Positions 33,351 to 62,469 of a DNA stretch of 64,000 nt are shown here, piece by piece (within the stretch, counting starts at the first letter, position 1; each line of letters begins with the position of its first letter). A model generated the notes under the pieces. The model worked only from the letters and a program-made list of their open reading frames with translations, had not been told where the DNA came from and ran no database searches. The position numbers and the translations under genes were made by a program. Source of the stretch: Pseudaminobacter soli (ex Zhang et al. 2022) (GTDB lineage: Bacteria > Pseudomonadota > Alphaproteobacteria > Rhizobiales > Rhizobiaceae); NCBI RefSeq assembly GCF_014595955.1, contig NZ_JABVCF010000006.1:1-64000 (forward strand), written 5' to 3'.

Positions 33351-33358
33351 GGAGACGA

Positions 33359-37965: not shown

Positions 37966-38202
37966 CTATTGGCGCCGCTTGGCCCGGTTACGCCTGGCAA
38001 GCCAGATGTAACCGCCGATGACGGCGAGAACAGGAAGGCCGACCCCCGCGACAGGACCGGGTGCGGCTAGGCCCGGCTTGCCGCCCGGACCATAGCCAAG
38101 GCCAGGCGTCGGACCTCGATCCGGAGGTTGCTCGGCAAGGGCCGGGGCCGCTGCCATCAGGCAAAGGGCAGCGGTAATGAAGGCTGTTCGAAAGCCCAAC
38201 AC
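37966..38202 (-). CDS. Tiny exported protein with PEP-CTERM-like C-terminus (candidate exosortase substrate)
   Basis: 78 residues from the GTG at 38200-38202, which follows an AGGAGG site; the frame also has a GTG two codons upstream inside that site. Layout: signal peptide to about A23 (ITAALCLMAAAPALA), a Gly/Pro-rich linker (DRGPTPGLGYGPGGKPGL), then PGPVAG, a hydrophobic span (VGLPVLAVIGGYIWLA) and a basic tail RRNRAKRRQ. Signal plus sorting motif, membrane span and Arg cluster is the tripartite PEP-CTERM plan, with almost no mature domain between. A second, frameshifted copy lies at 61020-61234. Regulation is unknown. Confidence 0.65.
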   Translation of the reverse strand: MLGFRTAFITAALCLMAAAPALAEQPPDRGPTPGLGYGPGGKPGLAAPGPVAGVGLPVLAVIGGYIWLARRNRAKRRQ

Positions 38203-38351
38203 GTTCACCTCCTGGGTTCGCCCCCAATGGTAGGCAAGGTATGTCTCTTCTTCGGTTTAGGAGAGACATCCCTTTGGGGGAGGAGATCACGGCCTGAAAG
38301 TGGAAGGCCGGTCCTTGTCTCCCACGCTCTCCTTCGCTGCCATGTCCGAAT

Positions 38352-38555
38352 CTATGATCCCGTCCCGCGAAAGACCACGACGGTGGTCATCAGTAGGATT
38401 CCGAGGTCCGTTTTAAGGGACATGATGCCGCGGCAATACGCATCGTATTTGACATTCTTTACAAGGTAACACTGATTCCGTTCACTAATCTTCCTTAAGT
38501 TCAGTCACTCCTGGGCAGATGATCGAAATACGCTTTGCCGGATACCGCGGCGATA
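38352..38555 (-). pseudogene. C-terminal remnant of a polyprenyl-phosphate sugar transferase (ExoY/PssA-like)
   Basis: On the minus strand the fragment reads KISERNQCYLVKN, KYDAYCRGIMSLKTDLGILL and MTTVVVFRGTGS, stop 38352-38354. It aligns residue by residue with the end of the intact transferase at 61414-62097 (QISERNQCSFEERARYDTHY, SIRSLKTDFRILLMTIMVVF). Earlier codons are frameshifted and then lost; only the sequence upstream of the gene is recognisable again. It is the decayed half of a gene duplication. Confidence 0.8.
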
Positions 38556-38664
38556 CCGCATGCGTTCGGCATTCATTTCGGCAATGCTCGATGGGCTGTA
38601 CTAAGACCGCGAAGCTCGCTGGTTACATCTTCGGGGGAAAGCGGCGGAATCAGGCCGAAGGCGA

Positions 38665-39849
38665 TCAGGTCGCCCGCGGCCCGCCCACCGCCAACACGTC
38701 CGCCAAGGCGTCGACGACGAAGTGGACGTCGCCCTCGCCCATCTGGACGTAAAGCGGAAGCATGATCGAGTTATCCTGCGCGGCACCGCTGTTCGGAAGA
38801 TCGCCCGTGGCCCTGCAGTCTCCCGGGCCGGAGTAGGCCAATTCCCGGTGTATGTTCATCACCCCGCGACGAGTTGCGATGCCTCGATCAAGCAGCGCCT
38901 GCATGACGGCGATCTGGGAGACGGCGCGCGGCAGTCCGATGCAGTAGCTCTGCCAGTTGCTGCGCGCCCATGACGGCTCATTCGGCGGAGAAACACCCGG
39001 CACGGAGGCAAGCCTCTCGGCATAGACATTCGCGAGGATGCGGCGCCTCGACACGAGTTCGGGAAGGCGGCGAAGCTGCTCGCGGCCAATTGCTGCCTGC
39101 AGATCCGTCATGCGATAGTTGAAGCCCAGTTCGGGATAGCTTTCGAACAGCACCTGCCGAGCGCTATGCCGCACGGTATCAGAAACATCCATGCCGTGCT
39201 GGCGCCAGAGCCTGAACTTGCGGTCGTAAGCGGCGCTGGCTGTCGTGATCATACCGCCGTCGCCCGTCGTGACGACCTTGCGCGGATGGAACGAGAAACA
39301 TGCAATGTCGCCGTGGGGCTTTCCGATCGGCTCCCACTTGCCATCCCAGAAGACTTCGCTTCCCGTCGCGCACGCAGCGTCCTCTATGATCGGGATCCGG
39401 TGGCGCCTTCCGATATCGGCAATCTGCTCCAAGTTGCACGGCATGCCGAGTTGATGCACGCAGAGGATAGCTTTTGTCCGCGGCGTGATAGCGGCCTCGA
39501 CCTGCTCCGGGTCTATGTTGAAGCCGCCCGCTTCGATGTCAACGAAGACCGGTGTTGCGCCGCAGTAGCGGACGGCGTTCGCCGTAGCAATGAAGGAGTG
39601 GCTGACTGTGATCACCTCGTCGCCGGCACCGACTTCGACGGCACGCAGCGCCAGGTGAAGGGCGGTGGTGCAGTTGGAAACGGCGCAGGCGAACGGCGCA
39701 CCCACCGTTGCCGCGAACTCGCGCTCGAAGGCGGCGACCTCGGGTCCCTGGGTCACCCACCCGGACAGCACCACACGCCGGACGGCTTCGATCTCTCGCT
39801 CTTCGAGGAGCGGCTTCGCCACCGGGATGAGAGTTGGGTTCGCGTTCAC
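38665..39849 (-). CDS. DegT/DnrJ/EryC1/StrS family sugar aminotransferase
   Basis: 394 residues from the GTG at 39847-39849, which overlaps the epimerase stop (GTGA). PLP-aminotransferase features: NCTTALHLALRA, GDEVITVSHSFIATANA, the IIEDAAC Asp, FSFHPRKVVTTGDGG with the Schiff-base Lys, and FNYRMTDLQAAIG. It adds an amino group from glutamate to a keto-sugar nucleotide, here as the last gene of a six-gene operon. A second DegT enzyme is encoded two genes upstream, so the sugar made may carry two amino functions or the operon makes two sugars. Confidence 0.9.
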   Translation of the reverse strand: MNANPTLIPVAKPLLEEREIEAVRRVVLSGWVTQGPEVAAFEREFAATVGAPFACAVSNCTTALHLALRAVEVGAGDEVITVSHSFIATANAVRYCGATPVFVDIEAGGFNIDPEQVEAAITPRTKAILCVHQLGMPCNLEQIADIGRRHRIPIIEDAACATGSEVFWDGKWEPIGKPHGDIACFSFHPRKVVTTGDGGMITTASAAYDRKFRLWRQHGMDVSDTVRHSARQVLFESYPELGFNYRMTDLQAAIGREQLRRLPELVSRRRILANVYAERLASVPGVSPPNEPSWARSNWQSYCIGLPRAVSQIAVMQALLDRGIATRRGVMNIHRELAYSGPGDCRATGDLPNSGAAQDNSIMLPLYVQMGEGDVHFVVDALADVLAVGGPRAT

Positions 39850-40820
39850 TCTGCGGCCGCCAGGGAGGTCTGGCGCTCGCGGCGCCACCAATCAACGAGA
39901 TCGCGAAGCCCCTCCTCAAGGCCGATTGCCGCCTTGAACCCAAGCGTTTCGCGGGCTTTGGAGACGTCGGCGAGTCGCCGTGTCACGGCATTCACGCTTC
40001 TCGCAGGCGCATGGTCCGCAGTCACTGAAGAGCCCATTACGCTGGCCAGTGTGGCAGCAAGCTCAATCAGGCTGGTTTCGGCACCGCTGGCCACATTGAA
40101 CACCTCGTCGGTAACGTCCGATTTCGCTGCCAAGATGTTGGCGCGGGCGACGTCCCGCACGTGGACGAAGTCCATTGTCTGCAGGCCGTCGCCATGAATG
40201 ATCGGCGCCTCCCCGGCGGCGATGCGCTCCATCCAGCGGATCAGCACCTCGGTATACGCGCCGTAAACATCCATGCGGGGGCCGTACACATTGAAGTAGC
40301 GCAAGCCCACATAGCGCAACCCATACATCTCGGCGAAAGAGCGAAGCAGTCCTTCATTGAACGCCTTGGCGGCGCCGTAGATCGTCCGGTTGTTGTAGGG
40401 ATGATGCGTCTCAGTTGTCGGGAAGTGGTCCGCCAAGCCAAGTACCGACGCCGAGGATGCCGCGACGATCTTGGAGACGCCAGCGTTGACGGCCGTTTCT
40501 AACAGGTCGAACGTGCCGCGCGCCAAAACGTCGAACGCAAGGCGCGGATCCTCCGCGCATTGCGTGATGCGGATCGCGGCTTGATGGAAAACAATATCGA
40601 CGCGCGGCAGCAGTTCATCCAGTAAGGCGCGATCGCGGATGTCGCCGGTCACGATGGTGAGCGGGCAAAGCTCGCATGCGCGCCGAAGGTTTTCGCGCCG
40701 ACCGCGGCTAAAATTGTCAAGGATGATGATCTCGCGCGGACCTTCCATGGCCGCGAGATCCGCGATGTGCGAACCGACCAAGCCCGCTCCGCCTGTTATC
40801 AGTATCCGCTGGTCCTTCAT
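39846..40820 (-). CDS. NAD-dependent sugar-nucleotide epimerase/dehydratase (extended SDR)
   Basis: 324 residues from ATG 40818-40820, overlapping the preceding stop (ATGA). ITGGAGLVGSHI is the NAD motif, ASSASVLG and YGAAK supply Ser, Tyr and Lys of the active site, and LRYFNVYGPRM is the usual extended-SDR substrate segment. It resembles UDP-glucose/GlcNAc 4-epimerases. In context it probably converts or epimerises the amino-sugar nucleotide made by this operon. Exact sugar not readable. Confidence 0.88.
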   Translation of the reverse strand: MKDQRILITGGAGLVGSHIADLAAMEGPREIIILDNFSRGRRENLRRACELCPLTIVTGDIRDRALLDELLPRVDIVFHQAAIRITQCAEDPRLAFDVLARGTFDLLETAVNAGVSKIVAASSASVLGLADHFPTTETHHPYNNRTIYGAAKAFNEGLLRSFAEMYGLRYVGLRYFNVYGPRMDVYGAYTEVLIRWMERIAAGEAPIIHGDGLQTMDFVHVRDVARANILAAKSDVTDEVFNVASGAETSLIELAATLASVMGSSVTADHAPARSVNAVTRRLADVSKARETLGFKAAIGLEEGLRDLVDWWRRERQTSLAAAE

Positions 40821-41542
40821 CGGCTGGTTACCTCCAGTTCTTGGCTCCGCCGCAGAGAATCTGAATCCGTTCTCCAATGGAGAAATCTTGCCGGCACACC
40901 CGCAACCACAGCGAAGGGCGGCACGTCGGCGACGACAACCGCGCCCGCGCCGACGATCGCACCCTTGCCCACGGTGACGCCAGGCAGAATGGACGCATTG
41001 ACGCCTATGTCGGCCCAGTCTTCGATCCTGATCGGCCGAATCCTGAGGTCGGTCCGGATCACCGGGACCGAGGCAGGTACTCCCACATGCGCGGAACCGA
41101 GAGCCTTCGCGCCAGGCCCCCACCCGACAAAATTGCCGATATAGAGATCCCGCGCATCAAGAAACGCCTGCGGGCCGATCCAAGTGTTGTCACCGATCGT
41201 GCATGATCCATCGAACCGTCCCTGGATCGTTGCCTGTGCGCCGATGTGCACGTCCGCCCCGATCTCGAACGTTTCCAGATCCCTGAAGACGACCCCGCCG
41301 CCCACGCTCAGTCCGTCCCCGCAGCGCCGCGCAAGAGCACGCCAGATCACGCGGCGCATCATGCTGTCGACCATTCCCTCGCCCAAGGCGAAGCGGGCGT
41401 AAAGTTCGATCAGTCCGGGACGTCCGTAGGCATCTCGCAGCGCGCCGACCAGGCCTAGCTCGAAAGTTGGATCGGCCCTGAGCTCGCGGCGGCCGTGCAC
41501 AGCCGGGACAATTCTCTCTGCGCTTGCGGTATCAGGCGGCAT
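40817..41542 (-). CDS. Left-handed beta-helix acyltransferase (hexapeptide repeats)
   Basis: 241 residues. Hexapeptide repeats run from about residue 85 to 215 ([58 protein letters not shown]), the trimeric beta-helix of acetyl- or acyl-CoA-dependent transferases. The N-terminal 80 residues are helical and unusual for the small sugar acetyltransferases. It overlaps the epimerase start and the aminotransferase stop on either side, so it is translated with them and likely acylates an amino or hydroxyl group of the sugar. Confidence 0.87.
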   Translation of the reverse strand: MPPDTASAERIVPAVHGRRELRADPTFELGLVGALRDAYGRPGLIELYARFALGEGMVDSMMRRVIWRALARRCGDGLSVGGGVVFRDLETFEIGADVHIGAQATIQGRFDGSCTIGDNTWIGPQAFLDARDLYIGNFVGWGPGAKALGSAHVGVPASVPVIRTDLRIRPIRIEDWADIGVNASILPGVTVGKGAIVGAGAVVVADVPPFAVVAGVPARFLHWRTDSDSLRRSQELEVTSR

Positions 41543-42638
41543 ATGCGCATTCCTCGACCGCCTCGACGACCTGGCGCACCTGATCCGTCGTCATTTCCGG
41601 GAATATCGGCAGCGACAGCGCTTCCCGGGCAACCGCCTCGGCGACCGGGAAGTCGCCCGCGCGGTAGCCGAGATCGGCGTGTGCCTCCTGGAGATGCACC
41701 GGTATCGGATAGTGCAGGCCACATTCGATCCCAACGGACCGGAGGCCTTCTCGCAGGCGGTCGCGGCCGGAGGCGCGCAGGGCATAGATGTGATAGACGT
41801 GCCGCCGCCCGTGCGCCTGGACTGGAGCGGTGGTGCCGCCCGAGCCGGCCAACAGCTTGTCGTACAATGCGGCGTGACTTCGCCGCGCCCTCGTCCAGCG
41901 CTCTAGATGCCCGAGCTTGACCCGAAGGACGGCGCCCTGAATGCCGTCCATGCGGTAATTAAAGCCTTTGAGCACGTGATGGTAGCGCTGGCTCTGGCCC
42001 CAATCGCGCAGCATGCGGATCGCCTCGGCATGGCTGTCGCTGCTCGTCACGACGATGCCGCCCTCGCCGCATGCACCGAGATTCTTGCCGGGGTAGAAGC
42101 TGAAGCATCCCGCCACGCCGATACTGCCCGATCGGCGCCCGTGATACTCCGCTCCGTGTGCCTGGCACGCATCCTCGATCACCGCCAGACCGTGCCTGGC
42201 GGCGATATCCATGATGGGATCCATGTCCGCCATCTGGCCGTAGAGATGGACCGGAACGATGGCCTTGGTCCGGGGCGTGATCGCCGCCTCGACCATTGCG
42301 GGGTCCATCGTGCATGTAGCGGGCTCGATGTCGACGAAGACCGGGCGCGCGCCGGTGTAACAGATCGCGGAGACCGTCGCCACGAATGTCATTGGAACGG
42401 TGATGACCTCGTCTCCCGGGCCTATGCCTGCGGCGAGCAAAGACAGGTGCAGGGCACTTGTGCCGGTATTCACAGCGACCGCGTGCTTGGAGTCGCAGTA
42501 GGCGGCGAATTCGCGCTCGAACGCCTCCACCTCTTCCCCGAGGATGTAGCGCGTGGAGGCCAGGACGCGCAGGACCGCGTCATCTATCTCATCCTTGATA
42601 CTGGCGTATTGCGCCTTCAGGTCGAGGAACGGGATCAT
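41532..42638 (-). CDS. DegT/DnrJ/EryC1/StrS aminotransferase, WlbC/WbpE-like
   Basis: 368 residues. It opens [19 protein letters not shown], typical of WbpE/WlbC; then VNTGTSALHLSLLA, VPMTFVATVSAI, VIEDACQAHGAEYHG and FSFYPGKNLGACGEGG with the PLP Lys. Enzymes of this type transaminate the 3-keto group of UDP-2-acetamido-3-oxo-glucuronate. Its operon partners are a Gfo/Idh/MocA 3-dehydrogenase and an acetyltransferase, the same trio as in di-N-acetylated uronic acid synthesis. It overlaps both neighbours by a few bases. Confidence 0.9.
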   Translation of the reverse strand: MIPFLDLKAQYASIKDEIDDAVLRVLASTRYILGEEVEAFEREFAAYCDSKHAVAVNTGTSALHLSLLAAGIGPGDEVITVPMTFVATVSAICYTGARPVFVDIEPATCTMDPAMVEAAITPRTKAIVPVHLYGQMADMDPIMDIAARHGLAVIEDACQAHGAEYHGRRSGSIGVAGCFSFYPGKNLGACGEGGIVVTSSDSHAEAIRMLRDWGQSQRYHHVLKGFNYRMDGIQGAVLRVKLGHLERWTRARRSHAALYDKLLAGSGGTTAPVQAHGRRHVYHIYALRASGRDRLREGLRSVGIECGLHYPIPVHLQEAHADLGYRAGDFPVAEAVAREALSLPIFPEMTTDQVRQVVEAVEECAYAA

Positions 42639-43672
42639 GCTACCTGCCGCCTTGCGTTCCCAAGCTCGACGACTCGTCCACGCTGCGCCAGGGATTGCGT
42701 CGCCGCCTCGAGGATGTGGACGACGCGAAGGCCGGCCTCTCCGTCTGCTGTCGGCGCTGCTCCCTTTTCGATGCAGTCCGCGAACTCCTGCAGTTCGACC
42801 CTAAGCGCTTCGCTGGCCTCCAGTTGGGGTGCCCACATGTCGCCAGTCCGGTAGCCGACCAGCGCTTGGTAGATGTTGTCCGAACTGCCCTGTCGCTGGC
42901 CGAGTGTAATTCCCTTATCGTATACTTTGATTTTCTCGCTCGGCTCGAGATCGTCGTAGACGATCATCTTGCTGCTGCCACCGATCAGCGTTCGCCGCAC
43001 CTTGACCGGAGCGAGCCAGTTCACGTGGATATGCGCGATCAGATTGCCAGCAAAGAAGAGGCTAAGGTAGGCGATGTTCTCCGGCTCGCCGGGAACGTGG
43101 CTCATACCAGTGGCCGAAACAGCGACGGGCTTCTCGGGCAGCACGAAATCCATGATCGAGAGATCGTGCACGGCCAGGTCCCAGATCACGCTGACATCGT
43201 GCTGGAACAGTCCGAGGTTCACCCGCACCGAGTCGTAGTAATAGACCTCGCCGAGGCTGCTCTCCACGATTTCGCGCATCTTGCGGACTGCGCCCGTGTG
43301 GATGAATGTGTGGTCGACGGCCAGGACGAGATTGCGTCGCGCAGCCTCGTCGACCAGGCGCTGTGCCTCATCGGATGTGGACGCAATCGGCTTCTCGATG
43401 AAGACGTGCTTGCCCGCCATCAGCGCGCTCATCGCAAGGCGATAGTGGCTGGAAACCGGGGTCGCAATAGCGACGGCAGATATGTCCGGGTCGGCCAGAA
43501 CCTCATCGAAGCGGTCGGTGGCGGCAATGCCGGGATATCTACTTCGGACAGAAGCCAACCGCTCCGTCTTCAGGTCGCACACGGTGCGCAGTTGCGTGTT
43601 GGGAATTTCCGCCAGATTGCGGACCAGGTTGGGACCCCAGTACCCATATCCAATGACAGCGACGCCGATCAT
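42635..43672 (-). CDS. Gfo/Idh/MocA oxidoreductase, WlbA/WbpB-like
   Basis: 345 residues. The Rossmann motif [16 protein letters not shown] and the EKPIA Lys motif are conserved, followed by the [10 protein letters not shown] and [17 protein letters not shown] strands. WlbA/WbpB oxidise C3 of UDP-GlcNAc uronate with NAD. It overlaps the aminotransferase gene (ATGA) and the acetyltransferase gene on the other side, so all three are co-translated. The same order (acetyltransferase, dehydrogenase, aminotransferase) supports the pathway call more than any single gene does. Confidence 0.9.
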
Positions 43673-44172
43673 CCGATGCTCCCCGTCCGGCGCAGTTGGG
43701 GCCTGTCGGCAGCCTCCCCGATCACGATTGCCGGCACCCCAGCAACGATCGCATAATCCGGCACGTCATGGCTGACGACGGCGCCGGCGCCGACGATCGC
43801 ACCCTCGCCGATCGTCAGGCCCGCCAGGACCGTGGCGTTGCTGCCGATCGACGCGCCGCGCTTCACTGTGGTCGTGACGACGCTCCAGTCCCGGTCCGTT
43901 TGCAGTCTGCCATCAGGATTTACGGCGCGGGGGTAGAGATCGTTGGTGAACATCACACCATGGCCAACGAAGACCCCGTCCTCCAGCGTCACGCCTTCGC
44001 AAATGAACGAATGGGTGGACACCTTGCAGTTACGGCCGATCACGGCGTTGCGCTGGATCTCGACAAAGGCGCCGATGCGCGAGCCGGCACCGATCCGGCA
44101 GCCATAGAGGTTGACGAGATCAGGATGGTGGATGACCACTCCTTCCTCCAGTTCCACGTCGGCGACGATCAT
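43669..44172 (-). CDS. Sugar N-acetyltransferase, WlbB/WbpD-like (left-handed beta-helix)
   Basis: 167 residues, all hexapeptide repeats ([80 protein letters not shown]). The [11 protein letters not shown] loop is typical of WbpD/WlbB, which acetylate the 3-amino group of UDP-2-acetamido-3-amino-glucuronate. First gene of the minus-strand operon; upstream is a 765-base gap shared with a divergent glycosyltransferase gene, where the promoters must lie. Confidence 0.9.
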
Positions 44173-44937: not shown

Positions 44938-46224
44938 ATGACGGAAGGTCGCCATGTCCTTATCCTGGTCGAGAACCTGCCGGTGCCGTTCGACCGCCGT
45001 GTCTGGCAGGAAGCGCGGACGTTGTTGGACGCTGGCTACGCAGTCTCAGTGATCTGCCCGGCGGCGAAAGGGCATCTCAAGGCATACGAGTTCCTCGATG
45101 GCGTACATATCTACAGGCATCCGCTTCGCGAGGCACGCTCGGCCCGCGGCTATCTGAGGGAATATGCGACCGCCTTGTTCCACCAACTGCGCCTGTCGTT
45201 CCGCGTCCGACGGCGCCAACGGATCGACGTCATACAGGCCTGCAATCCGCCAGATCTGATGTTCTTGATCGCACTGGTTCATAAGTTGTTGTTCGGGACC
45301 CGCTTCGTCTTCGACCATCATGACCTCTGTCCCGAGCTATACGTCGCCAAATTCGATCGCAAGGACATCGGCTACAGGGCGATGCGCATGTTCGAACGGC
45401 TGACATTCCGATCTGCCGACGCAAGCATCGCCACCAACGAGATCTTTCGCGAACTTGCAATCTCGCGTGGCGGGATGTCACCGAACCGTGTGTTCATGGT
45501 GAAGAGCTATCCGGAGGCCGAGAAATTCCGGCGAACCGAGGCGGAGCCGCGGCTGGTCGCTCTCGGAAAGCATCTGATCGGCTATGTCGGGATCATGGGG
45601 CCGCAGGACGGCGTTGACGCCTTGGTCCGCGCCATGGCCGAACTGCAGGCGTGCGGACGCGACGACATCCACTGCGTCATCATTGGAGAAGGCCCGGAAC
45701 TTCCACGCCTCAGGGAACTCGCCGCCGCGCTCGGCCTGGACGGGTCGATTACCTTTACCGGTTATCTCCGGGGCGCGCCGTTGCTCAGCCATCTTTCGTC
45801 GCTGAGCGTCGGCGTCATCCCGGACGCCCCGAACGAATTCAACGACAAGCTGTCCATGAACAAGGTGTTCGAGTACATGATGCTCGGACTGCCCATCGTT
45901 CAGTTCAATCTTCTCCAGGCCTCGCGCGACGCCGGGGATGCCGCCCTAGTTGCGGCGGAGCATTCGCCCAAGGCGCTGGCGGAAGCAATAGCCTCGCTCG
46001 TTGATGATCCCGACCGCCGCCGCCGCATGGGGACATTCGGGTTCGAAACGGCGCAGCGCGAATTCCGCTGGTCGGTCGAACAGGCCAATTACCTGGCGGC
46101 GTACCGGGCAGTTCTCCGCCAGGAAACGACATCCGACGATCAGCCCGCCTATCGATCGGGCGCAAGCCCCGAAGCGCGCCTCCGGTTGCTCTCGTCTAGG
46201 CAAAGCGGAAAGGGTTCCGAGTGA
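44938..46224 (+). CDS. Glycosyltransferase family 4
   Basis: 428 residues from ATG 44938. GT-B fold landmarks: N-terminal VLILVENLPVPFDRRVWQEARTL and the FDHHDLCPELY acceptor-side loop; C-terminal IGYVGIMGPQDGVDALVRAM, EGPELPRLRELAAALGL and the KVFEYMMLGLPIVQF donor-binding motif with its catalytic Glu. WbuB-like transferases with this N-terminus act early in polysaccharide repeat assembly on the cytoplasmic membrane face. Divergent from the amino-sugar operon, it likely transfers one of its products. Sugar specificity unknown. Confidence 0.9.
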   Translation: MTEGRHVLILVENLPVPFDRRVWQEARTLLDAGYAVSVICPAAKGHLKAYEFLDGVHIYRHPLREARSARGYLREYATALFHQLRLSFRVRRRQRIDVIQACNPPDLMFLIALVHKLLFGTRFVFDHHDLCPELYVAKFDRKDIGYRAMRMFERLTFRSADASIATNEIFRELAISRGGMSPNRVFMVKSYPEAEKFRRTEAEPRLVALGKHLIGYVGIMGPQDGVDALVRAMAELQACGRDDIHCVIIGEGPELPRLRELAAALGLDGSITFTGYLRGAPLLSHLSSLSVGVIPDAPNEFNDKLSMNKVFEYMMLGLPIVQFNLLQASRDAGDAALVAAEHSPKALAEAIASLVDDPDRRRRMGTFGFETAQREFRWSVEQANYLAAYRAVLRQETTSDDQPAYRSGASPEARLRLLSSRQSGKGSE

Positions 46225-46381
46225 GGTCGCACTCGGTCTTTCTTCGCCGGGGAGCTTCAATGAACCGAGCCGCGTAATACATGAAACATATTCAACAACT
46301 AGATGCCGGCCATTCTATAGCTCTTATGTTCGGGGTATTGTTTATTAAAATGGTATGGGTCAATGCTTGGAGAGCAGCCTA

Positions 46382-47524: not shown

Positions 47525-47746
47525 TTCCGCTGACGAACGCGATCTGATTCATTGCCTTGATAATTCGCCAGGAGGATGAAGAGATCGTCTCCCACTGAGT
47601 GGTGTAGCTGATGGCATCTGTCGCCGTGCTGTCCGGCCTGGGCCGGACTGATCACGGCTGGCAGGCTGATGATGGGATCATCAGCTCAATTGCCCGACGC
47701 TTTCCAGCGTCATGTAGCGGGTACGCTGGACGGCCCATTGCGGCAC

Positions 47747-48820: not shown

Positions 48821-49089
48821 GCCGCATTTCCCTCAGAATTTCTATCGTCATCATGGATTCTTCGAGAATTCATCGGCCGAGACAAGATCTACAACCCTAC
48901 CCCTTTATCAGTACGAATGCTGGCGCGATGACGTCCAAACAACTCCCTATATCCGGGCACGCGGATTGTTCGCGAAGTGCGATCCCGCTACTGACGTTGG
49001 AAGTCGCACCATACCGGCGAATCGTGAACCGATCGAATTCTCGCGGCTTGAGCGGCGGTCGGGCGCTTCCGCCAGGGCGCTAGGTCGAT

Positions 49090-52925: not shown

Positions 52926-52988
52926 CCCCTACATGGTTCCCAACGAGGCAACACTCAGGGGCGATACCGGTTCGATCGAGAACGCATT

Positions 52989-53129
52989 CGCCAACTCAAG
53001 GCGCTGCTGCGAGCAAGGGCCGAAAGAACCATTGCCGCCCCGTCGGACACAGTAGGCTTGGTCCTCGACCTCTTCACTTCCGCCGAATGCGCCAACCACT
53101 TCAAGGCTGCCGAATATGACCCAGATTAA
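52989..53129 (+). mobile_element. IS630-family transposase C-terminal remnant
   Basis: A short plus-strand frame reads QLKALLRARAERTIAA, then VLDLFTSAECANHFKAAEYDPD and a stop at 53127-53129. This is the conserved end of IS630 transposases (KLKALLRKAAERT, LDLFTPDECANYFxAAGYDP). The rest of the element is missing. It lies immediately downstream of the polymerase gene. Confidence 0.78.
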
Positions 53130-53196
53130 GCAGGACGGGCTCTAGCGCCGTGACGCGCAGTCTCCGTCTTGATGCCCTGATAATAGAGACTTCAGG

Positions 53197-55209: not shown

Positions 55210-56138
55210 CTGGCGCGAGAATCCTCCCTGATCGTCCCGATGTCGCGGTTCCACGCCTTCGAGAGTGCGCGGCCATCACTTTGCAGCAGAACTGCGATCA
55301 TGCGGCCGCCGCGATAGAACCTGATGCGGGTGAGACAAAGGAAAGCGAGCAGGCGCTCATATGGCCCGGAGACCCGCGGCGAGACGAGCAGCGTCCGGAA
55401 CTCGAAAACGGGGGAACCCGCGACGGCGACTGCCCGTGCAAGCCAACGCAGTGTCGCAAGGGGCCGGGATCGCATGCGTTCGAAATCGTGTGCGATATGC
55501 CTGTCCCATTTCTTGGTCAGTTCTGCGAAGGTCTTCCGGGCAGGATGAAACACGATCATCTCCGGCACGTATTGTATTGCATAACCTGCCGCGCCGGCGC
55601 GCAATCCCCAGTCCCTGTCCTCGGCAACCTCTATCCCGGCAAAGGGTCCGACATTTGCGACGACCGAAGGCAGCGTTGCGAGATTGCCCGTCCCCGAGAA
55701 TCCTTCGGCGATATGCTCGTTGTTGCGATAGGAATAGATGCTCTCATAAGGCTCGAGAAATGTAGGGCGCGCGGCATTCTCGTAACCGACCCTCACATCC
55801 CCACCTATGATCTGCGTTCGTCGGTTCGCGAAGGCTGCCTCGATCGCGGCAATCCATCCGGGATCGGCCCTGCAATCGGCGTCGATGAATGCCAGGATAT
55901 CGCCCCGTGCTTCTCCTATTCCCCGGTTTCTTGCGGGCCCCGGGCCGGGTGTGCGCTCAGAGACCAGCCGGACGCCGGGCCAGGCAGAGCAGACCGGCTC
56001 AGGCAACCGCGTCGATCCGTTATCTACGACGATGATCTCGATATCGGCGGTGACACTCTCCTGGGCGTGCAAAGCTTTCAGCCCGATCTTGAGGTGATCT
56101 TCCTGGTTGAGGTGAGGAATGATGACTGAAATCAACAT
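55206..56138 (-). CDS. Glycosyltransferase family 2
   Basis: 310 residues from the ATG at 56136-56138, giving MLISVIIPHLNQEDHLKIGL; the frame extends upstream but into the asparagine synthase end. GT-A motifs: IIVVDNGSTRLPEP, PGPARNRGIGEARGDILAFI, DADCRADPGWI, ending GIEVAEDRDWGLRAGAAGY. Middle gene of the asnB-GT2-GT2/GT23 operon; overlaps the next gene by four bases and follows asnB by 14 bases. Donor and acceptor unknown. Confidence 0.9.
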   Translation of the reverse strand: MLISVIIPHLNQEDHLKIGLKALHAQESVTADIEIIVVDNGSTRLPEPVCSAWPGVRLVSERTPGPGPARNRGIGEARGDILAFIDADCRADPGWIAAIEAAFANRRTQIIGGDVRVGYENAARPTFLEPYESIYSYRNNEHIAEGFSGTGNLATLPSVVANVGPFAGIEVAEDRDWGLRAGAAGYAIQYVPEMIVFHPARKTFAELTKKWDRHIAHDFERMRSRPLATLRWLARAVAVAGSPVFEFRTLLVSPRVSGPYERLLAFLCLTRIRFYRGGRMIAVLLQSDGRALSKAWNRDIGTIREDSRAR

Positions 56139-56152
56139 TGCCGTGTCCTTCG

Positions 56153-58021
56153 TCAGAAGAATTCGCGGAGGAACGTCTCGAGTGCGAAGAGAGCCCACAG
56201 GGTCTTGTCATGGTTCCGCCGCCTGTCTGCATGCTCGCTGAGAAGACGTCCGACCGTCGTCCGATCGAGGTAGCTGCCGCTGATGCTGTCAGACCCTAGA
56301 AGGAGCGCCCGCGCCGGTTCGAGAAGGGGGCCGCAGAACCATTCCGTGACCGGCATCCGGAAGCCGTTCTTTGGTCGATGGAGTACGGCCTTCGGCAGAC
56401 GCGGCCCCAGGGCTTCGCGCACAATGCGCTTGGTGACACGACCTCCGATCCGCCAGCGGTCGGGCAACGTGCTGGCGAATTCGGCGAGCTTCACATCCAT
56501 GAACGGTGTCCGCGCCTCAATCGACGCGGCCATCGTCATCATGTCCATGCGTTCGAGCAAATTGTCGGGCAGCCAGGACGTCTGGTCGAAATGCAAAATC
56601 CGACGAAGAGGAGTGCTTCCGGGGGCTGGACGGAAAGGGCGTTCGTCGAGTGCTCGAAAGACGCCCGGTCCATTCCAGAGTTGTTCACGCTCGGCCCGGG
56701 TGACAGCCCCGAACCACAAGACCATTCGATCTTCGAAGCGACCCTCGCGCATGGCACGGGCAGCGATTCTCAGCCTTCTGTTCGGAAACGACGGGAGAGA
56801 CGTCGCCGCCAGCAAGGCCTGACCGGCAACCGACAGCAGGCCAGGCCCGGCAAGTCCGCCGAGATATCTCTCGACGAGATGCTTGGGGTAGCCGGCGAAC
56901 ATTTCGTCGGAGCCTTCGCCCGACAGGATCACCTTGACATGTTTCCCCGCCTCCTTCGACATCATGTAGATCGGCAGGTCGGCGGTCTCCGCAACCGGTG
57001 CGGCCCGATGTCGACTTAGCTTCGGTAGCAGCGCCGCCAGGTCGTCCGGCTGCAGTTCCAACGGGGTATGGATTGTTCCGATCTTACGAGCGGCTTCGGC
57101 TGCGGCCGGCAATTCAGACGCCGGATCGTCTCGGAAGCCCACGGAAAATGTTCGTATCTCCGGGGCGCCCAGATGCGCCAACGTTGCCACGATGGCTGTA
57201 GAATCGAGGCCGCCCGAGAGAAAGGCTCCAAGCGGCACATCGGCTCTCAGGCGCAACTTGACCGCTTCGTCGAAAACATCGAGGAACGCCGCTACGGGAT
57301 CCGGGCATGATTTCCGTTCCCTCGCAGTCTCTTCCGGCGCACTCCAGTACTGCCTCGTCGTGGTTTTGCCGGCCTTCCACACAAGGTAGCTTGCCGGGGG
57401 CAGTTTGCGGATCCCACGGAAGAAGGTGAAGGGACCGGGCGCGTAACGCCAGCAAAGGTATTGATAGAGCGAGTCGAGATCGAGTTCGGCCTGCACTTCG
57501 GGATGGGCAAGCAAGGCGCGGATCTCGGAACCGAACACCAGCGTAGCTCCCGACGCCGTCTGCCGCTCCGCGATGAACAGTGGCTTCTTGCCGAAATGGT
57601 CACGAGCCAGCACGACGGTTCTGTCGATGTTGTCGTGAAGCGCGAAGGCGAACATGCCCCTGAACCGGGGCAGGCAATCCGCTTTCCAGAGGCGCCACGC
57701 CTCGAGAATGACTTCGGTGTCGGACCGGGTCGTGAACCTGGCGCCACGCGCCAGAAGTTCGTCCCGCAGTTCGATGTAGTTGTATATTTCTCCGTTGAAG
57801 ACGACGGTGTATCGACCGTCATGACTCGTCATCGGCTGGCCGCCGCCAGAAATGTCGATGATGGATAGTCGACGATGCCCAAACGCGGCCAATGATCCGT
57901 CAGAAAGTGGCAGAACCCTCAATCCTTCGCCATCGGGTCCACGATGTTGGAGAGCGCCCGTCATATCCTGCAGGTGGCGAATGTCGGCCGGCGGCCCTAT
58001 CCATCCGGCAATGCCACACAT
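56153..58021 (-). CDS. asnB: Asparagine synthase (glutamine-hydrolysing)
   Basis: 622 residues, the normal AsnB length. Cys2 of MCGIAGW is the glutaminase nucleophile; FNGEIYNYIELRDEL and SDTEVILEAW form the glutamine site; the synthetase domain carries the PP-motif SGGLDSTAIVATLA and ILSGEGSDEMFAGYP. It makes asparagine from aspartate with ATP, but AsnB paralogues inside polysaccharide clusters (for example WbpS-like) may amidate a uronic acid sugar. As the neighbouring operon makes a uronic amino sugar, amidation of that sugar is the likelier role. First gene of a three-gene minus-strand operon. Confidence 0.9.
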   Translation of the reverse strand: MCGIAGWIGPPADIRHLQDMTGALQHRGPDGEGLRVLPLSDGSLAAFGHRRLSIIDISGGGQPMTSHDGRYTVVFNGEIYNYIELRDELLARGARFTTRSDTEVILEAWRLWKADCLPRFRGMFAFALHDNIDRTVVLARDHFGKKPLFIAERQTASGATLVFGSEIRALLAHPEVQAELDLDSLYQYLCWRYAPGPFTFFRGIRKLPPASYLVWKAGKTTTRQYWSAPEETARERKSCPDPVAAFLDVFDEAVKLRLRADVPLGAFLSGGLDSTAIVATLAHLGAPEIRTFSVGFRDDPASELPAAAEAARKIGTIHTPLELQPDDLAALLPKLSRHRAAPVAETADLPIYMMSKEAGKHVKVILSGEGSDEMFAGYPKHLVERYLGGLAGPGLLSVAGQALLAATSLPSFPNRRLRIAARAMREGRFEDRMVLWFGAVTRAEREQLWNGPGVFRALDERPFRPAPGSTPLRRILHFDQTSWLPDNLLERMDMMTMAASIEARTPFMDVKLAEFASTLPDRWRIGGRVTKRIVREALGPRLPKAVLHRPKNGFRMPVTEWFCGPLLEPARALLLGSDSISGSYLDRTTVGRLLSEHADRRRNHDKTLWALFALETFLREFF

Positions 58022-58677
58022 GTTCTAATGGCTCGCGGCGTTGGTGGAGCAATTGGGGATGCGAATCTTTGTCATCGCCTATTCTTCAAGACTGCGCTCG
58101 GCTCGGGAAATTAACGTCGGCGGCTGTTGATCCACTTCGGTCTAACGCTGCTCGGCGCTTGGCGGTACCTCAACAAAAGAGGCAATGACCCTACCCCCGT
58201 TTGCTGTTGGCGGTTGCGCGATTGCCAAACCCTGTCGCCGTGTATCCACGCCGTAACCCGCCGCTCATTCCAACGGCATGGCCGGCCCCGGCTCTGCAGC
58301 GTGCCGGCGATTGGCGCAAGCAGTCGTCGGGGCGAAAGTGCAGGTCGCCGTCATTGTGCTTGGTAGCGAAGCGCGATCGGCGCAGCGTTGCGAGCCAGCG
58401 AAGAGCTACGGCTCGCTCCAGCGCGCGACCGCGCACCGCTCGGTCCTTGCCTTGTTGATCAGGCGTCCGGCGTGCGCTTGGGACAGATAGTGGTTAGCCT
58501 GGGCGGAGGCGCATGGGGGGAGGCTTTGCAGGGTCGTGGGCCTTGGAACGATGCTTACCGCCCCCATCTTTGAGCGGCGGGATATTGCCTCATCTCCCGG
58601 TGCCCTGATCGGACGAAGGACGGCCTCCTCTCGCTTCGTCGGAAACGGAGCACACAACATGGTCTCGACGGAGAGGC
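58022..58677. other. Gap, no gene recognised
   Basis: The gap between asnB and the RTX gene holds several short frames but none with a recognisable motif. It ends at the terminator of the RTX gene, and upstream of asnB it should hold that operon's promoter. Confidence 0.35.
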
Positions 58678-58709
58678 CAAAAAGTTCGAGGGCGCCTTGG
58701 CGCCCTCGA
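58678..58709 (-). terminator. Rho-independent terminator of the RTX beta-helix gene
   Basis: CGAGGGCGCC (58688-58697) pairs perfectly with GGCGCCCTCG (58700-58709) around a 2-base TT. On the minus strand the stem is followed by AACTTTTTGG, a T-run. It lies 45 bases past the stop of the RTX gene. Confidence 0.8.
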
Positions 58710-58753
58710 GTAAGCGTAGCATTGGGCCGTGGCCCTTGTTGGCGTGAAACGTC

Positions 58754-60661
58754 CTACAGGATGAAATCCTGGGCGTTCAGATTGACCTGCCCCGTCAACC
58801 CTATCTCGAAGTCATGCCCGCCATCGCCGTTTATATCACCCTGGATCACGGTATGGTCGTTCTCGAGACGCCAGGCCAAGGCGCCCGGCTTCCGATCGAA
58901 CGCAGCGTTTTCCTGCTCAATGAAGTGGAAGGCGCCGTTGCCGCGCGCCGTGCCATTCGCGTCGATCGCTGAGAGGTCGATCTTGTCAACACCCTTCTGG
59001 AAGTCGGTGATGACATCTCTGCTGGAACCGGAGCCGGTGTCGGAAACCTTGGTGAACACGAAACGGTCGGCGCCATCGCCGCCCGTCATCACGTCCTTGC
59101 CTCTGAAGCCGGTGATGGCGTCGTTGCCGTCACCGCCCACCAGCGTATCGCCCCTGGAGGTGCCGTTGAGGACCTGGCCAGATGGCGAAGGCGAAGGTGC
59201 AGGCTCCGGCGTAGGTGTGGGCTGCAGTTCAGGTTCCGGCGTAGGCGCAGGTTCCGGCGTAGGCGCTGGTTCCGGCGTAGGCGCCGGTTCCGGCGTGGAT
59301 GTGGCCGACAGAATGAAATCGTCTGCGCTCAAATTGACCCGCCCCGTCAACTCCATCTCGAAGTCATGCCCGCCATCGCCGTTCATATCACCCTGGATCA
59401 CGGTATGGTCGTTCTCGAGCCGCCAGGCCAAGGCGCCCGGCGTCCGGTCGAACGCTGCGTTTTCCTGCGCAATGAAGTGGAAAGTACCGTGCCCAGGGTC
59501 TGAGCCATTCGCGTCGATCGCTGAAAGGTCGATCTTGTCGAGGCCCTTCTGGAAGTCGGTGATGACATCCCTGCTGGAACCGGAGCCGGCATCGGAAGCA
59601 TTGGTGAACACGAAGCGGTCGGCGCCATTGCCGCCCGTCATCACGTCCCTGCCTTCGAAGCCGGTGATGATGTCGTTGCCGTCACCGCCCACCAGCGTAT
59701 CGCCGCTCGCGGTGCCATTAAGAACCTGGCTATCCGAAGGCGTCGGCGCAGGTTCCGGCGTAGGTGTGGGCTGCGTTTCAGGCGCAGGATCCGGCTGAGG
59801 CGCAGGCTCCGGCTCAGGCGTGGGCTGCGGCTCAGGCGTGGGCTGCGGCTCAGGCGTGGGCTGCGGCTCCGGCGTAGGATTGGGCGCCGCAGTGGGGTAG
59901 GGTGTCGGGTCTACGCCCTCCTGCCATTGGACATTGTTGCTAAGAGTCGGGCTGTTACCCAGGATATTGAAATAACCGTACCCACCCTTCTCCACATAGT
60001 TGTCTTCGATACGAACGTTGGAGAGTTCGTGGGTCCCACCTGTCGTCGCATAGACGGTGTAGGAAGGGTCGCCTGTCATCAGGTTGTTTCTGACCGTCAC
60101 ATCGTCGACAGGGCTGAATTTGGCGTCGATGAAGACAGCGGCCGTACCACCATTACCTTCCGGCATGAGGATCGAGTTGTTCTCGATCAGGTAGTTTGAA
60201 CCAGTGAAGAGGGTGATTCCGTCAAAGTGGCGATCATCGGGATTCGATGATGTATCGGCCAGATCGTGGATGTAGTTATCCTTGATCTCGGCCGAGCCTG
60301 CCAGTTGGATGCCGATGACCATGCCGTGAATGTTGTTGCCAATCGCTGCGGCTCCATCCCCTCCGATGAGCATGGCCGACGTGCGGGTCGAGCCGGTGCC
60401 GTCGAATTCGCTATTTTCAACGCGCAGCCCAGGGGCACTTTCCCCTTGGATTCCCCAGGTCGAGAAATTCTGAAGGACAGAATTCCTGATCGTAACGTTC
60501 TCTGCCGCGACCGTCAGCATTCCGTCGATGATGGCGTTCTCGATGACGGCACCATCCGTCGTGATGGTCATCGGCCCTGTATAAGGAGTGAGCACAGTAC
60601 CGGGCTTAACGCCGGTCGTGGTCGCATCGGGCATGCCGAAGCGCGCCGGATCAATAGCCAT
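58754..60661 (-). CDS. Secreted RTX right-handed parallel beta-helix protein (polysaccharide-modifying candidate)
   Basis: 635 residues from the ATG at 60659-60661 behind AAAGG. No N-terminal signal, as expected for type I secretion. Residues 1-260 form a parallel beta-helix (AVIENAIIDGMLTVAAENVT, IRNSVLQNFSTWGIQG, IKDNYIHDLADTSSNPDD, RHFDGITLF) like those of mannuronan epimerases and lyases. Then a Pro/Glu/Thr linker, a calcium-binding RTX/M10 C-terminal module (GGDGNDIITGFEGRDVMTGG, GADRFVF, DVITDFQKGLDKIDLSAI), a second linker and a near-identical second RTX module ending in FIL. Probably cleaves or epimerises the local exopolysaccharide outside the cell; the transporter is not in the window. 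Confidence 0.82.
   Translation of the reverse strand: MAIDPARFGMPDATTTGVKPGTVLTPYTGPMTITTDGAVIENAIIDGMLTVAAENVTIRNSVLQNFSTWGIQGESAPGLRVENSEFDGTGSTRTSAMLIGGDGAAAIGNNIHGMVIGIQLAGSAEIKDNYIHDLADTSSNPDDRHFDGITLFTGSNYLIENNSILMPEGNGGTAAVFIDAKFSPVDDVTVRNNLMTGDPSYTVYATTGGTHELSNVRIEDNYVEKGGYGYFNILGNSPTLSNNVQWQEGVDPTPYPTAAPNPTPEPQPTPEPQPTPEPQPTPEPEPAPQPDPAPETQPTPTPEPAPTPSDSQVLNGTASGDTLVGGDGNDIITGFEGRDVMTGGNGADRFVFTNASDAGSGSSRDVITDFQKGLDKIDLSAIDANGSDPGHGTFHFIAQENAAFDRTPGALAWRLENDHTVIQGDMNGDGGHDFEMELTGRVNLSADDFILSATSTPEPAPTPEPAPTPEPAPTPEPELQPTPTPEPAPSPSPSGQVLNGTSRGDTLVGGDGNDAITGFRGKDVMTGGDGADRFVFTKVSDTGSGSSRDVITDFQKGVDKIDLSAIDANGTARGNGAFHFIEQENAAFDRKPGALAWRLENDHTVIQGDINGDGGHDFEIGLTGQVNLNAQDFIL
58757..59180 (-). 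repeat. RTX module, second (C-terminal) copy
   Basis: About 140 codons encoding the C-terminal GGDGNDAITGFRGKDVMTGG-to-FIL module. It is closely similar in DNA and protein to the copy at 59306-59735 and is in the same frame, so it arose by tandem duplication together with a linker. Confidence 0.8.
59306..59735 (-). repeat. RTX module, first copy
   Basis: About 143 codons encoding VLNGTASGDTLVGG to VNLSADDFIL, paired with the copy at 58757-59180. A short TPEPAP-rich repeat array separates the two, and a longer TPEPQP-rich array (about 59740-59880) precedes this copy. Confidence 0.8.
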
Positions 60662-61019
60662 TAGTAACCTTTCTTCTTGTGAGCCCCCGGCCCCGCTTTG
60701 CCAGTCGACTCCAAGGACCAGCAGAGCAATGAGCAAGCCGGCCTTGGCGAGGGCCTCACCTAAAGGGGGCATCTATATCCCGCAATTCACGAAAGTTAAC
60801 ATTTTGTTAAACCTGTAATATTGACACGAAGAGTCAGCAATTTCGCCAAGATTCAATCAAACATAGCCTGATTTTGGACCGTTCATGTCCAAAATATGGT
60901 CCACTTAAGTCTAGGCTGCGTTGTTTGGCCTCAATTCGGTAATTCTTGCCCGAATCAGAACCTTTGCAGAGTAAGCCTTGTAGAACCCGCCTTCCGCGCG
61001 TTCGACCCGGTGCCCGCGT
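60662..61019. promoter_or_regulatory. AT-rich promoter region of the RTX gene
   Basis: Upstream of the RTX start the DNA turns AT-rich. GTTAAC at 60795-60800 and GTTAAAC at 60806-60812 form a near-repeat that may be a binding site. Nothing else is recognised before the right-arm repeat begins near 61020. Confidence 0.35.
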
Positions 61020-61234
61020 GTATTGCGCGGCCTGTCCCGGTTACGCCGCCGACGACGGCGAAGACAGAAGGCCGCCCCCTGCGATAGGACCAGGCGTGGC
61101 TAGGCCCTTGTTGCCGCCCGAACCATAACCAAGGCCAGGCGTCGGACCTCTATCCGGAGATTGTTGGGCAAAGGCCGGGGATGCTGCCATCATGCAAAGT
61201 GCAGCGGTGATGAAGGCTCTCGAAAGCCGGACAC
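61020..61234 (-). pseudogene. Frameshifted second copy of the tiny exosortase-substrate-like protein
   Basis: Starts with GTG 61232-61234 behind GGAGGTG, like the left copy. It reads SGFR, then after a one-base loss RAFITAALCMMAASPAFAQQ, DRGPTPGLGYGSGGNKGLAT and PGPIAGGGL, where a second lost base and an 18-base deletion destroy the membrane span and basic tail. Over the intact stretch it matches the left copy (37966-38202) residue by residue: DRGPTPGLGYG, PGP(V/I)AG. A gene copy that no longer encodes a sortable C-terminus. Confidence 0.75.
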
Positions 61235-61413
61235 GATCACCTCCTTTGATGTTTGCCAGTGGGAAGCACGATATGACTTTACTGGCGGAGTAGGAGATAG
61301 ATCACTTGGGGAGGGAAGAGGTCTCAGTCCGAAGGCGGAAGGCCGCTTCTGGCCTCTATCTCCGCCGCTTGTGCCTCACCGCCATGACCGGACAATTCGC
61401 CCCGATCGGCCTC

Positions 61414-62097
61414 CTATAGTCCTGTGCCGCGAAACACCACCATGATTGTCATCAGCAGGATGCGGAAGTCCGTTTTCAGGGATCGGATGCTGCTGTAATG
61501 CGTGTCGTATCTGGCGCGCTCTTCAAAGGAACACTGGTTCCGCTCGCTGATCTGCCAAAGTCCAGTCATTCCTGGGCGCATGTCGAAATACGCGTTGCCC
61601 GGATAGAGGATCCTCTGCTCAAGAGACATGGGACGAGGTCCTACGAGGCTCATTTGCCCGAGCAGGACGTTCCAGAGCTGCGGCAACTCGTCTATCGAGT
61701 ATTTGCGCATGTACCAGCCGAGCTTCGTGATCCTGGGGTCGCTTTGTAGCTTCTGCGTCCTCTCCCACTCCAGGCGCGCCGTCGGATCTTGTTGCAGGTG
61801 CTGCTGCAGCCGCTGCTCTGCGTCGGGTACCATCGTTCGCAACTTCCACATCGTGAATATTTCGCCGCCCCTGCCCAAACGCCGCTGCCCGTAGAAAGGC
61901 CTGCCGCCGTTTGCCTGGATCAGCAGGGCTAGAAAAGCGATGATCGCGAGCGCGGGTAACGCAAGAAGCAAAGCGGCCATCAAGTCGATGCTGCGCTTAA
62001 CGATGGAGTAGCGGGCGAGAGCACTGAATTCCCGGTGTTGCGGCGAGCTTTGGACCACCAGGTCGCGCGTATGCGACCTAGAGAAATCTCCATGCAT
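61414..62097 (-). CDS. Polyprenyl-phosphate sugar-1-phosphate transferase (ExoY/PssA-like)
   Basis: 227 residues from the ATG at 62095-62097, which has AGGAGA 6 nt upstream; longer open frame upstream has no family features. One N-terminal span (DLMAALLLALPALAIIAFLA) precedes the cytoplasmic catalytic domain with GRPFYGQRRLGRGGEIFTMW, KLRTM, RKYSIDELPQLWNVL (acid pair DE) and LVGPRP. It starts repeat-unit assembly by moving a sugar-1-phosphate from a UDP-sugar to undecaprenyl phosphate. It lies divergent from the Wzz-like gene; a truncated copy lies at 38352-38555. Confidence 0.92.
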   Translation of the reverse strand: MHGDFSRSHTRDLVVQSSPQHREFSALARYSIVKRSIDLMAALLLALPALAIIAFLALLIQANGGRPFYGQRRLGRGGEIFTMWKLRTMVPDAEQRLQQHLQQDPTARLEWERTQKLQSDPRITKLGWYMRKYSIDELPQLWNVLLGQMSLVGPRPMSLEQRILYPGNAYFDMRPGMTGLWQISERNQCSFEERARYDTHYSSIRSLKTDFRILLMTIMVVFRGTGL

Positions 62098-62469
62098 GGA
62101 AATCTCCTGATGTAGATGGCCCGCGGACACGGGACGAATGGCTATTGCTGTTCTGCGGCTGTGCAGTCTCGCGAAGGTAGAGGCTGTGCCGAGCGGCAAA
62201 AGGTGGCCAAAATACTGGATTTCAGGCAATTCGGCCGATAGGCTCAGTCGGGCATCCAAGCCTGACGGTAAAGGCATATGCGCCTGAGGGGCTATGCCGA
62301 GTCCGGGGAACTCGCCGGTTACATCTTCGGGTGAGCCGGTTGGACAATAGGCGTAGTGGGTCGTGTGGTCCGCGCTCCTAATGCCACCATCGGCGGTCTA
62401 CCGCACGTTCCGCAGCGGTTTGACAATGGCCGCTCTTTGGGCCGACGAGGCGATGCGGGTACCTGAACG
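62098..62469. other. Divergent gap between sugar transferase and Wzz-like gene
   Basis: 372 bases that must hold both promoters. Its middle (about 62296-62335) is the shared end of the direct-repeat arm. No further gene is recognised. Confidence 0.4.

Follow-up and report, generated by a model that had tools for sequence, protein, structure and literature searches.

The first 64,000 nucleotides of contig NZ_JABVCF010000006.1 from Pseudaminobacter soli (Rhizobiaceae), hereafter the window, are part of a contig of 341,667 bases (C48 of the host genome, G000) and carry a polysaccharide gene cluster bracketed by two homologous segments, here called arms. Each arm holds, in whole or in part, a sugar transferase gene and a gene for a small exported protein (SML), while beside the left arm stand the genes for a probable exosortase-like membrane enzyme (XRT) and for an accessory protein (ACC). 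The features of the arms and of these neighbours are as follows.

36576-37076 (-): ACC, about 166 amino acids, with an N-terminal membrane anchor, an alpha/beta domain and two invariant cysteines (C77, C151); adjoins XRT
37033-37920 (-): XRT, probable exosortase-like integral membrane protein of 295 amino acids, with C202, R248 and H263; 21.3 bits to TIGR04178
37966-38208 (-): left-arm SML, intact, 80 amino acids; open frame, E 4e-37 to a profile seeded with SML itself
38345-38544 (-): frameshifted 3' end of the left-arm transferase, a remnant; agrees with the right copy in 78% of aligned columns, protein match of 58% over 48 amino acids
38590-38638 (-): left-arm remnant of the region preceding the transferase; 78% identical to 62286-62334, E 2e-5
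61020-61236 (-): right-arm small gene, broken, its putative sorting tail lost; relative to the left copy it has three gaps of 1 base and one of 19 bases
61414-62277 (-): right-arm sugar transferase, intact; PF02397, E 7e-56
62286-62334 (-): right-arm block upstream of the transferase, common to the left arm in the arm alignment

The duplicated arms and their decay

Window positions 38012-38544 align with 61046-61605 in plus/plus orientation, 416 of the 564 columns being identical (74%, E 6e-94), and a second collinear block upstream of the transferase joins 38590-38638 to 62286-62334 (38 of 49 identical, plus/plus). This bears out the sequence-only reading, in which the same pair of genes occurs in the same orientation at both ends of the cluster. 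Across the aligned columns, the arms share 86.0% identity in the small gene, 77.8% at the transferase end and 72.9% in the intergenic DNA. When the right arm was used to query the host genome, the left arm was recovered over 533 bp (E 4.5e-91) and the next match extended over 56 bp (E 5.5e-4; best 10 of 45 candidates scored; in many of the genomes searched only part of the first-look candidates was scored). The transferase paralogues elsewhere in the genome reach 40-43% protein identity, and the arms do not, as had been named as a possible refutation, align merely as well as other members of their families. At the transferase end the right and left copies share 75.8%, compared with 62.7-68.6% between the right copy and six outgroups and 56.4-59.5% between the left copy and the same six; in the small gene the figures are 85.3% between the arms and 61.8-64.1% to two outgroups. 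In both genes the arms are nearer each other than to any of these outgroups.

The left arm is, as had been proposed, an intact small gene with a transferase stub. Its 80-residue frame is open, and of the transferase just the last 60-65 codons or so remain, frameshifted; about 680 bp of the body is absent, as the collinear alignment of the block at 38590-38638 upstream of the right transferase shows. The right transferase is intact, as claimed, and exceeds the PF02397 gathering score (189 bits against 27). Its matches in 33 other genomes of the family begin at residues 37-93, the best at about 57-61 or later, so that translation probably starts at an internal ATG near 62100. The neighbouring small gene is a copy without the C-terminal membrane tail, and its description as frameshifted twice needs correction in view of the three 1-base gaps and one 19-base gap. 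An exosortase remnant was also considered at 60773-61020, outside the right arm; when an alignment was forced, similarity past the small-gene stop was only patchy, and no remnant is claimed.

With sequences of genomes G122 and G193 as outgroups, the changes that could be polarised divide between left and right copies as 25:10 at the transferase end and as 7:12 in the small gene (Fisher p 0.02 for the two ratios compared; p 0.017 for the transferase imbalance alone). Sites at which the outgroups disagreed or matched neither arm were set aside (13 in the transferase, 11 in the small gene). The transferase outgroups were of our own choosing, and other choices gave 24:6 and 18:4. The polarised counts lend modest but consistent support to reciprocal decay, which, together with the alignment and the outgroup identities, upholds the pattern that had been suspected from the letters.

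The exosortase-like cassette beside the left arm

The sequence-only reading had overlooked XRT and ACC, the neighbours of the left arm. XRT begins 45 bp downstream of the left small gene, and ACC overlaps the end of the XRT gene by 44 bp. An enzyme-alignment profile search of genome contigs, in a collection that represents each of 84,980 species by a single genome, returned 44 loci (L), which by title belong mostly to Mesorhizobium, Devosia, Microvirga, Bradyrhizobium and Aquabacter, one contig being filed under a Kaiparowitsia metagenome-assembled genome (MAG). The main locus genera belong to the Hyphomicrobiales, where records place Microvirga, Rhizobium, Sinorhizobium and Pararhizobium; eight of the 44 named loci are genomes also counted under a genome (G) handle. 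At 40 of the loci a small-protein gene was detected no more than 2.5 kb from XRT, and at 34 it is directly upstream and co-directional; three loci (L047, L060 and L067) supplied seeds for the small-gene profile. ACC adjoins XRT at 42, and was not detected near L058 and L090. At the genome level, 41 of 42 genomes with XRT hold at least one small-protein match, the single miss (G425, L063) having masked bases there. The cassette is a conserved, unnamed three-gene set and a variant of the exosortase kind rather than a new kind. No account of it appeared in the titles and abstract openings of the papers listed by the literature searches, and an earlier mention is possible.

A search of the fetched flanks with the window transferase, at E up to 1e-5, found a match at just two of the 44 loci: in L048 it lies some 4 kb from the small gene, and in L080 some 2 kb away, at 32% identity. 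It had been suggested that the two arms together make one working set. Because the conserved neighbour of the small protein is the exosortase with its accessory and not the sugar transferase, this survives in a modified form, the probable partner of SML being XRT with ACC by the left arm. Polysaccharide-type matches, sought with 19 proteins of the window contig in flanks of about 6 kb, occur at 18 of the 44 loci, some of them weak, and the closest cassettes (G122, G193) have no homologue of the tested polysaccharide proteins in about 20 kb around. The three genus sisters G001-G003 lack XRT and have no comparable copy of the left flank.

Read by eye, SML comprises a signal peptide, a Pro/Gly-rich middle, the motif PGPVAGVGLP, a transmembrane segment (TM) and a basic tail. 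The small proteins have in common a signal-peptide-like start, a variable Pro/Gly-rich middle and a tail composed of PxPxxGxGLP, a TM and a basic cluster, in which P5, P7, G12, P14 and G20 do not vary among the 12 tails aligned. In the host genome the one tail match is the left small gene (best 37 of 74 candidates scored). When 394 genomes of the family were searched, the small-protein profile matched in 16; the match reaches the end of the tail in 12, and all 12 belong to the 16 genomes with XRT; six of the 12 seeded the profile, and after their removal all six remaining full-tail genomes have XRT (p 5e-11, kinship ignored). The matches in G059, G249 and G318 (to position 44) and G341 (to position 57) are partial, lie inside frames of 329-365 amino acids and occur where XRT is absent. 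A tail-only profile applied to 209 genomes gave 16 strong places (E 1.3e-13 or better; about 7 of them seeds of that profile) in eight genomes, all with XRT, the other nine places, the G158 small gene included, having E 1.8e-4 or weaker. Because extra tail-bearing proteins lie far from XRT in G018, G083, G136 and G205, it is the tail, rather than the position, that goes with XRT, and the tail of PxPxxGxGLP, TM and basic cluster is probably a sorting signal.

Established tail families do not take in these proteins. The motif is not PEP, and among eight proteins there was one weak PEP-CTERM match, to LEVG (E 0.04). The best GVDTG-CTERM score was 21.3 against a cutoff of 29, and the LPXTG model gave weak matches in four of the eight, one G018 protein scoring 16.4 against a cutoff of 15.9, yet without LPxTG. 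The SML of the window itself matched neither the GVDTG-CTERM nor the LPXTG model. By analogy, the small protein may work like a PEP-CTERM substrate, yet it is no member of that family. Two tandem small genes with differing middles and alike tails stand upstream of XRT in G122 and G193 (L035 13409-14036, L036 12945-13653), and a divergent second small-protein gene lies upstream of the cassette in the MAG loci L049 (4438-4671) and L051 (4564-4791) and on a Microvirga plasmid (L171, 4186-4431).

In XRT, C202, R248 and H263 follow one another in order and are invariant in 37 of 37 aligned sequences (the window and 36 of the 44 loci, eight being omitted). The AlphaFold2 model has a predicted local distance difference test (pLDDT) value of 90.3 and about eight long helices, and the hydropathy profile merges into seven regions. 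All ten aligned enzymes match the general exosortase signature TIGR04178 at E <=0.01 (best 4e-7), at least one passing by E-value; of seven relatives scanned singly, some of them shortened, L050 alone passes (23.5 bits), the others scoring 17.8-22.7. Pfam Exosortase_EpsH (PF09721) matches three of ten relatives weakly (best E 7e-5). The membrane protein of the window is probably an exosortase-like enzyme. An exosortase gene in pieces, with an in-frame stop and apparently a decayed copy, was seen at G182:C4:685760-686531.

In ACC, C77 and C151 are invariant in 33 of 33 sequences (the window and 32 of the 44 loci), and the AlphaFold2 model has a pLDDT of 90.4. Family scans gave no Pfam match below E 0.08 (33 members) and no NCBIfam match below 0.18 (nine members), EpsI (TIGR02914) being absent from the matches of those nine at E up to 1. 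The best fold match (E 0.22) was counted as no match. The lone PDB match below 0.001, 8erw_A (C2HR4_8r), which we take to be a designed helical protein, has E 2e-4, lies in the membrane-anchor region without any stretch that passes alone, and was set down to composition. The scans placed neither XRT, nor the tail, nor ACC at cutoff in any specific family of NCBIfam or Pfam, multi-member scans being judged by E-values rather than curated cutoffs; the exceptions are L050 and at least one aligned enzyme, which pass the general exosortase signature, and the G018 tail, which just passes the general LPXTG model.

The cluster between the arms and the origin of the arrangement

The DNA between and beside the arms carries the following features.

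38665-44172 (-): core block of the interior, DegT1, NAD epimerase, AcT1, DegT2, GFO and AcT2; same gene order in relatives
44938-60772 (no single strand given): rest of the interior, with glycosyltransferases, a WsaF-like protein, Wzy, AsnB and a beta-helix/RTX protein; homologues of most in the G415 and A13 clusters
49075-49475 (no strand given): IS5 remnant within the interior; sub-cutoff match to PF13340 (E 1e-5); 66-70% to plasmid-borne IS5 transposase genes
62470-64000 (+): Wzc-like chain-length gene, divergent from the right transferase and running past the window; homologues near the transferase in relatives

The order from DegT1 to AcT2 is kept on plasmids of Sinorhizobium sp. BG8 and Pararhizobium sp. 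A13 and in G412, G414 and G415, at 58-78% identity, with the exception that in A13 the NAD epimerase is 31% identical and an extra nucleotide-sugar dehydrogenase gene stands in the block; in G431, four of the six block genes are in the stretch fetched. BG8, A13, G412, G414 and G415 each have one transferase in the stretch. In these five and in G122, G193 and G411, a Wzc homologue adjoins the transferase or is separated from it by one tested gene. The core block is on the same side of the transferase in BG8 and A13 as in the window. Most genes of the rest of the interior, except AsnB and GT4b, have homologues in the G415 and A13 clusters, the G415 stretch including those of WsaF, Wzy, GT2a/b/c and GT4a. 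The BG8 and A13 cluster stretches contain no arms, no small gene and no XRT, and XRT has no match to either plasmid. Since the core block of relatives accompanies one transferase and Wzc where arms are absent, the interior appears to be native and not inserted, and the proposal that it was inserted or exchanged between the arms is not sustained in that form.

The junctions differ from those of the relatives. DegT1 abuts Wzx in six of six relatives examined (BG8, A13, G412, G414, G415, G431) and abuts the left arm in the window, Wzx being at about 70.2 kb. The neighbour of the transferase is a response-regulator gene (A13 annotation) in BG8, A13, G411 and G415, and the broken small gene in the window. 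In G412, G414, G415 and G431 the exosortase cassette is about 9-36 kb from the transferase and not adjoining; likewise, the nearest close-type transferases on the same contig are about 9-36 kb from the small gene in G431, G411, G414, G412 and G415. From these comparisons, the adjacency of transferase and small gene looks derived in this lineage.

Traces of mobile elements were sought in the same DNA. The IS5 remnant that had been reported was recovered at about 49.08-49.48 kb. The IS630 remnant was not confirmed, the one frame scanned having no Pfam or NCBIfam match. Positions 52975-53145 match places in 134 plasmid records, mostly rhizobial, at 60-80% identity in 116 of them and at 80-83% in the six listed, none of which bears a transposase label; the segment is mobile-element-like. 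TniB- and TniQ-like genes (PF05621, PF06527) lie at 33347-35134 (+), just left of the exosortase cassette; they form a transposition pair of the Tn5053 type, and no TniA was found beside them in the pieces tested. Two further interior genes encode composite proteins. The protein of 53197-55254 (-) fuses a glycosyltransferase family 2 domain to a NodZ-like fucosyltransferase domain in 685 amino acids, and that of 58754-60772 (-) combines a beta-helix, linkers rich in proline and, at the C-terminus, two RTX units of the serralysin type; an internal stretch of 0.55 kb is duplicated at 85% identity.

The explanation we favour, with a probability of about 0.72, is that the transferase-small gene unit was duplicated and that each arm then lost the copy without a local partner. 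The arms would be two copies, in direct orientation, of upstream DNA, sugar transferase and small exported protein, which arose within this lineage or by joining from a very close one, and each would have retained the gene with a working partner alongside. The left small gene would be under selection as the probable dedicated substrate of XRT, 45 bp downstream, and the left transferase, being redundant, would have decayed. The right transferase would have been kept for priming polysaccharide synthesis with the divergent Wzc and the cluster genes, whereas the right small gene, with no exosortase alongside, decayed and lost its tail. SML would be exported by the Sec route and cut at PxPxxGxGLP by the membrane Cys/Arg/His enzyme, aided by the anchored ACC, and a short Pro/Gly-rich peptide would then be released or transferred to the envelope or to polysaccharide. 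What the comparisons establish is the homology of the arms, their pattern of decay, the conserved cassette and the joint occurrence of tail and enzyme, from which the relation of SML to XRT, its cleavage, the fate of the peptide and the route of duplication are inferred.

Several results weigh against this account. A single-copy transferase-small gene pair was looked for in relatives and not found, either by DNA in 41 genomes (at most 10 candidates scored in each) or by comparing the places of the two genes in 42 XRT genomes (42 of the 44 loci); because no relative with the transferase beside the small gene was found, the ancestral pair is reconstructed from the window alone. The small-gene imbalance by itself (12:7) is non-significant (p 0.36), and mismatches show no third-position excess in either gene, so that the codon-position test for selection between the arms was uninformative and neutral drift of both genes also fits. 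Ten of the 44 loci lack a small gene directly upstream of XRT, and at four none was detected within 2.5 kb (L058, which ends just after the enzyme gene, L084, L087, and L088, which begins just before it), and Rhizobium sp. WL3 (H17) has XRT and ACC with no detectable SML in the stretch. The link between cassette and polysaccharide genes is not general, because 26 of the 44 loci lack polysaccharide-type matches in their flanks. The XRT of the window falls below the TIGR04178 cutoff (23 bits) and has no Pfam match; it has no solved structural relative (Foldseek best E 0.35), and a PDB sequence search with the XRT alignment gave no match at E up to 1.

Part of the disagreement concerns the route only. 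The left arm could be the end of an older resident cluster (transferase, small gene, XRT, ACC) and the right arm that of a related cluster that came in from outside; one crossover, or integration of the two side by side, would have united them, and what was redundant would have decayed. Such a merger, which is compatible with duplication and loss, is possible and somewhat doubtful: the arms differ by 26% and are hence old or were already diverged on arrival, both outer junctions are unlike those of relatives, and the TniB/TniQ genes and the IS5 remnant are at hand, yet the arms are nearer each other than to the few outgroups compared, no polysaccharide family occurs among 10 proteins tested left of the cassette (23.5-36 kb), and no donor was found. 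That the 22-kb interior entered a single-copy arm and duplicated it, the version of the sequence-only reading, appears quite improbable. The direct orientation of arms that flank the interior, the IS5 remnant inside it and the lower guanine-plus-cytosine content of 46-54 kb (0.55-0.58) would suit it; against this, the core block and several other interior genes stand near a transferase and Wzc in the armless BG8, A13 and G415, the remaining interior (0.57-0.63) overlaps the flanks (0.57-0.67), and the three genus sisters are also without a comparable left flank, which leaves no empty site there (the interior itself was not searched in them).

A different objection concerns the small protein, which might be a co-inherited structural subunit or regulator of the membrane enzyme and not its substrate. 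Adjacency alone is no proof of substrate status, and the tail could be a membrane-docking helix. We regard this as unlikely, given that the same tail is borne by proteins with unlike, variable N-termini at remote loci, in XRT genomes only, that G122 and G193 have tandem small-gene copies, and that the layout of motif, TM and basic residues is as in PEP-CTERM proteins (excerpts of PMC1569441 and PMC12188702).

Relation to known sorting systems

To our knowledge, exosortases have received little functional study, one reason being the large number of substrates that many of them have. A single substrate of about 80 residues, encoded beside its enzyme and accessory, would offer a minimal setting in which to test cleavage, transfer and attachment. 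The arms provide a natural experiment within one genome, in which the duplicated putative substrate gene survived by the enzyme, and broke and lost its tail where no enzyme adjoins. With low confidence, we propose an unnamed exosortase family, here mostly of Hyphomicrobiales, with its own signal of PxPxxGxGLP, TM and basic residues and, in most genomes, a dedicated substrate of about 80 residues, so that sorting would come close to one peptide per enzyme. At its boldest, this reading has the enzyme move the Pro/Gly-rich peptide to a lipid-linked intermediate or to the chain end of the neighbouring polysaccharide, where it would become a protein tether of the capsule. This fate is read from other exosortase systems, in which, according to excerpts of PMC12188702 and PMC10936215, sorted proteins tie polysaccharide to the surface or the enzyme serves biofilm formation.

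Clusters of the WbaP/EPS-type transferase, as in BG8 and A13, resemble the window in having one transferase near Wzc and the DegT1-AcT2 block; unlike the window, they are without small gene, XRT and arms in the stretches compared, and their transferase is 58-62% identical. Archaeosortase D and exosortase X show weak profile similarity to the enzyme (ArtD in two of 10 members, XrtX in one of 10), ArtD being far below its cutoff where shown (30.2 against 125) and XrtX reaching E 2e-4 at best. XrtF of Flavobacterium johnsoniae is, like XRT, a variant exosortase with an adjacent partner protein, whose place ACC occupies in the window, and deletions in its system lower biofilm and surface colonisation (excerpts of PMC10936215); its substrates are described as not yet known in the consulted part of PMC12188702. 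In contrast, the window enzyme has no NCBIfam XrtF match in the scans shown.

The closest parallel is with PEP-CTERM/EpsH. The window differs in that its motif is PxPxxGxGLP and not PEP, its XRT is below the TIGR04178 cutoff without a Pfam match, its ACC has no EpsI match in NCBIfam, and its cassette has one to few substrates, usually one beside the enzyme. The likeness, as far as the excerpts of PMC1569441 and PMC12188702 go, extends to a polytopic membrane enzyme with invariant Cys, Arg and His (a residue set reported for EpsH in PMC1569441), to substrates with a signal peptide and a C-terminal tail of motif, TM and basic residues, and to a partner gene downstream of the enzyme, a place that ACC shares with EpsI of the first described case, in a system often found among polysaccharide genes.

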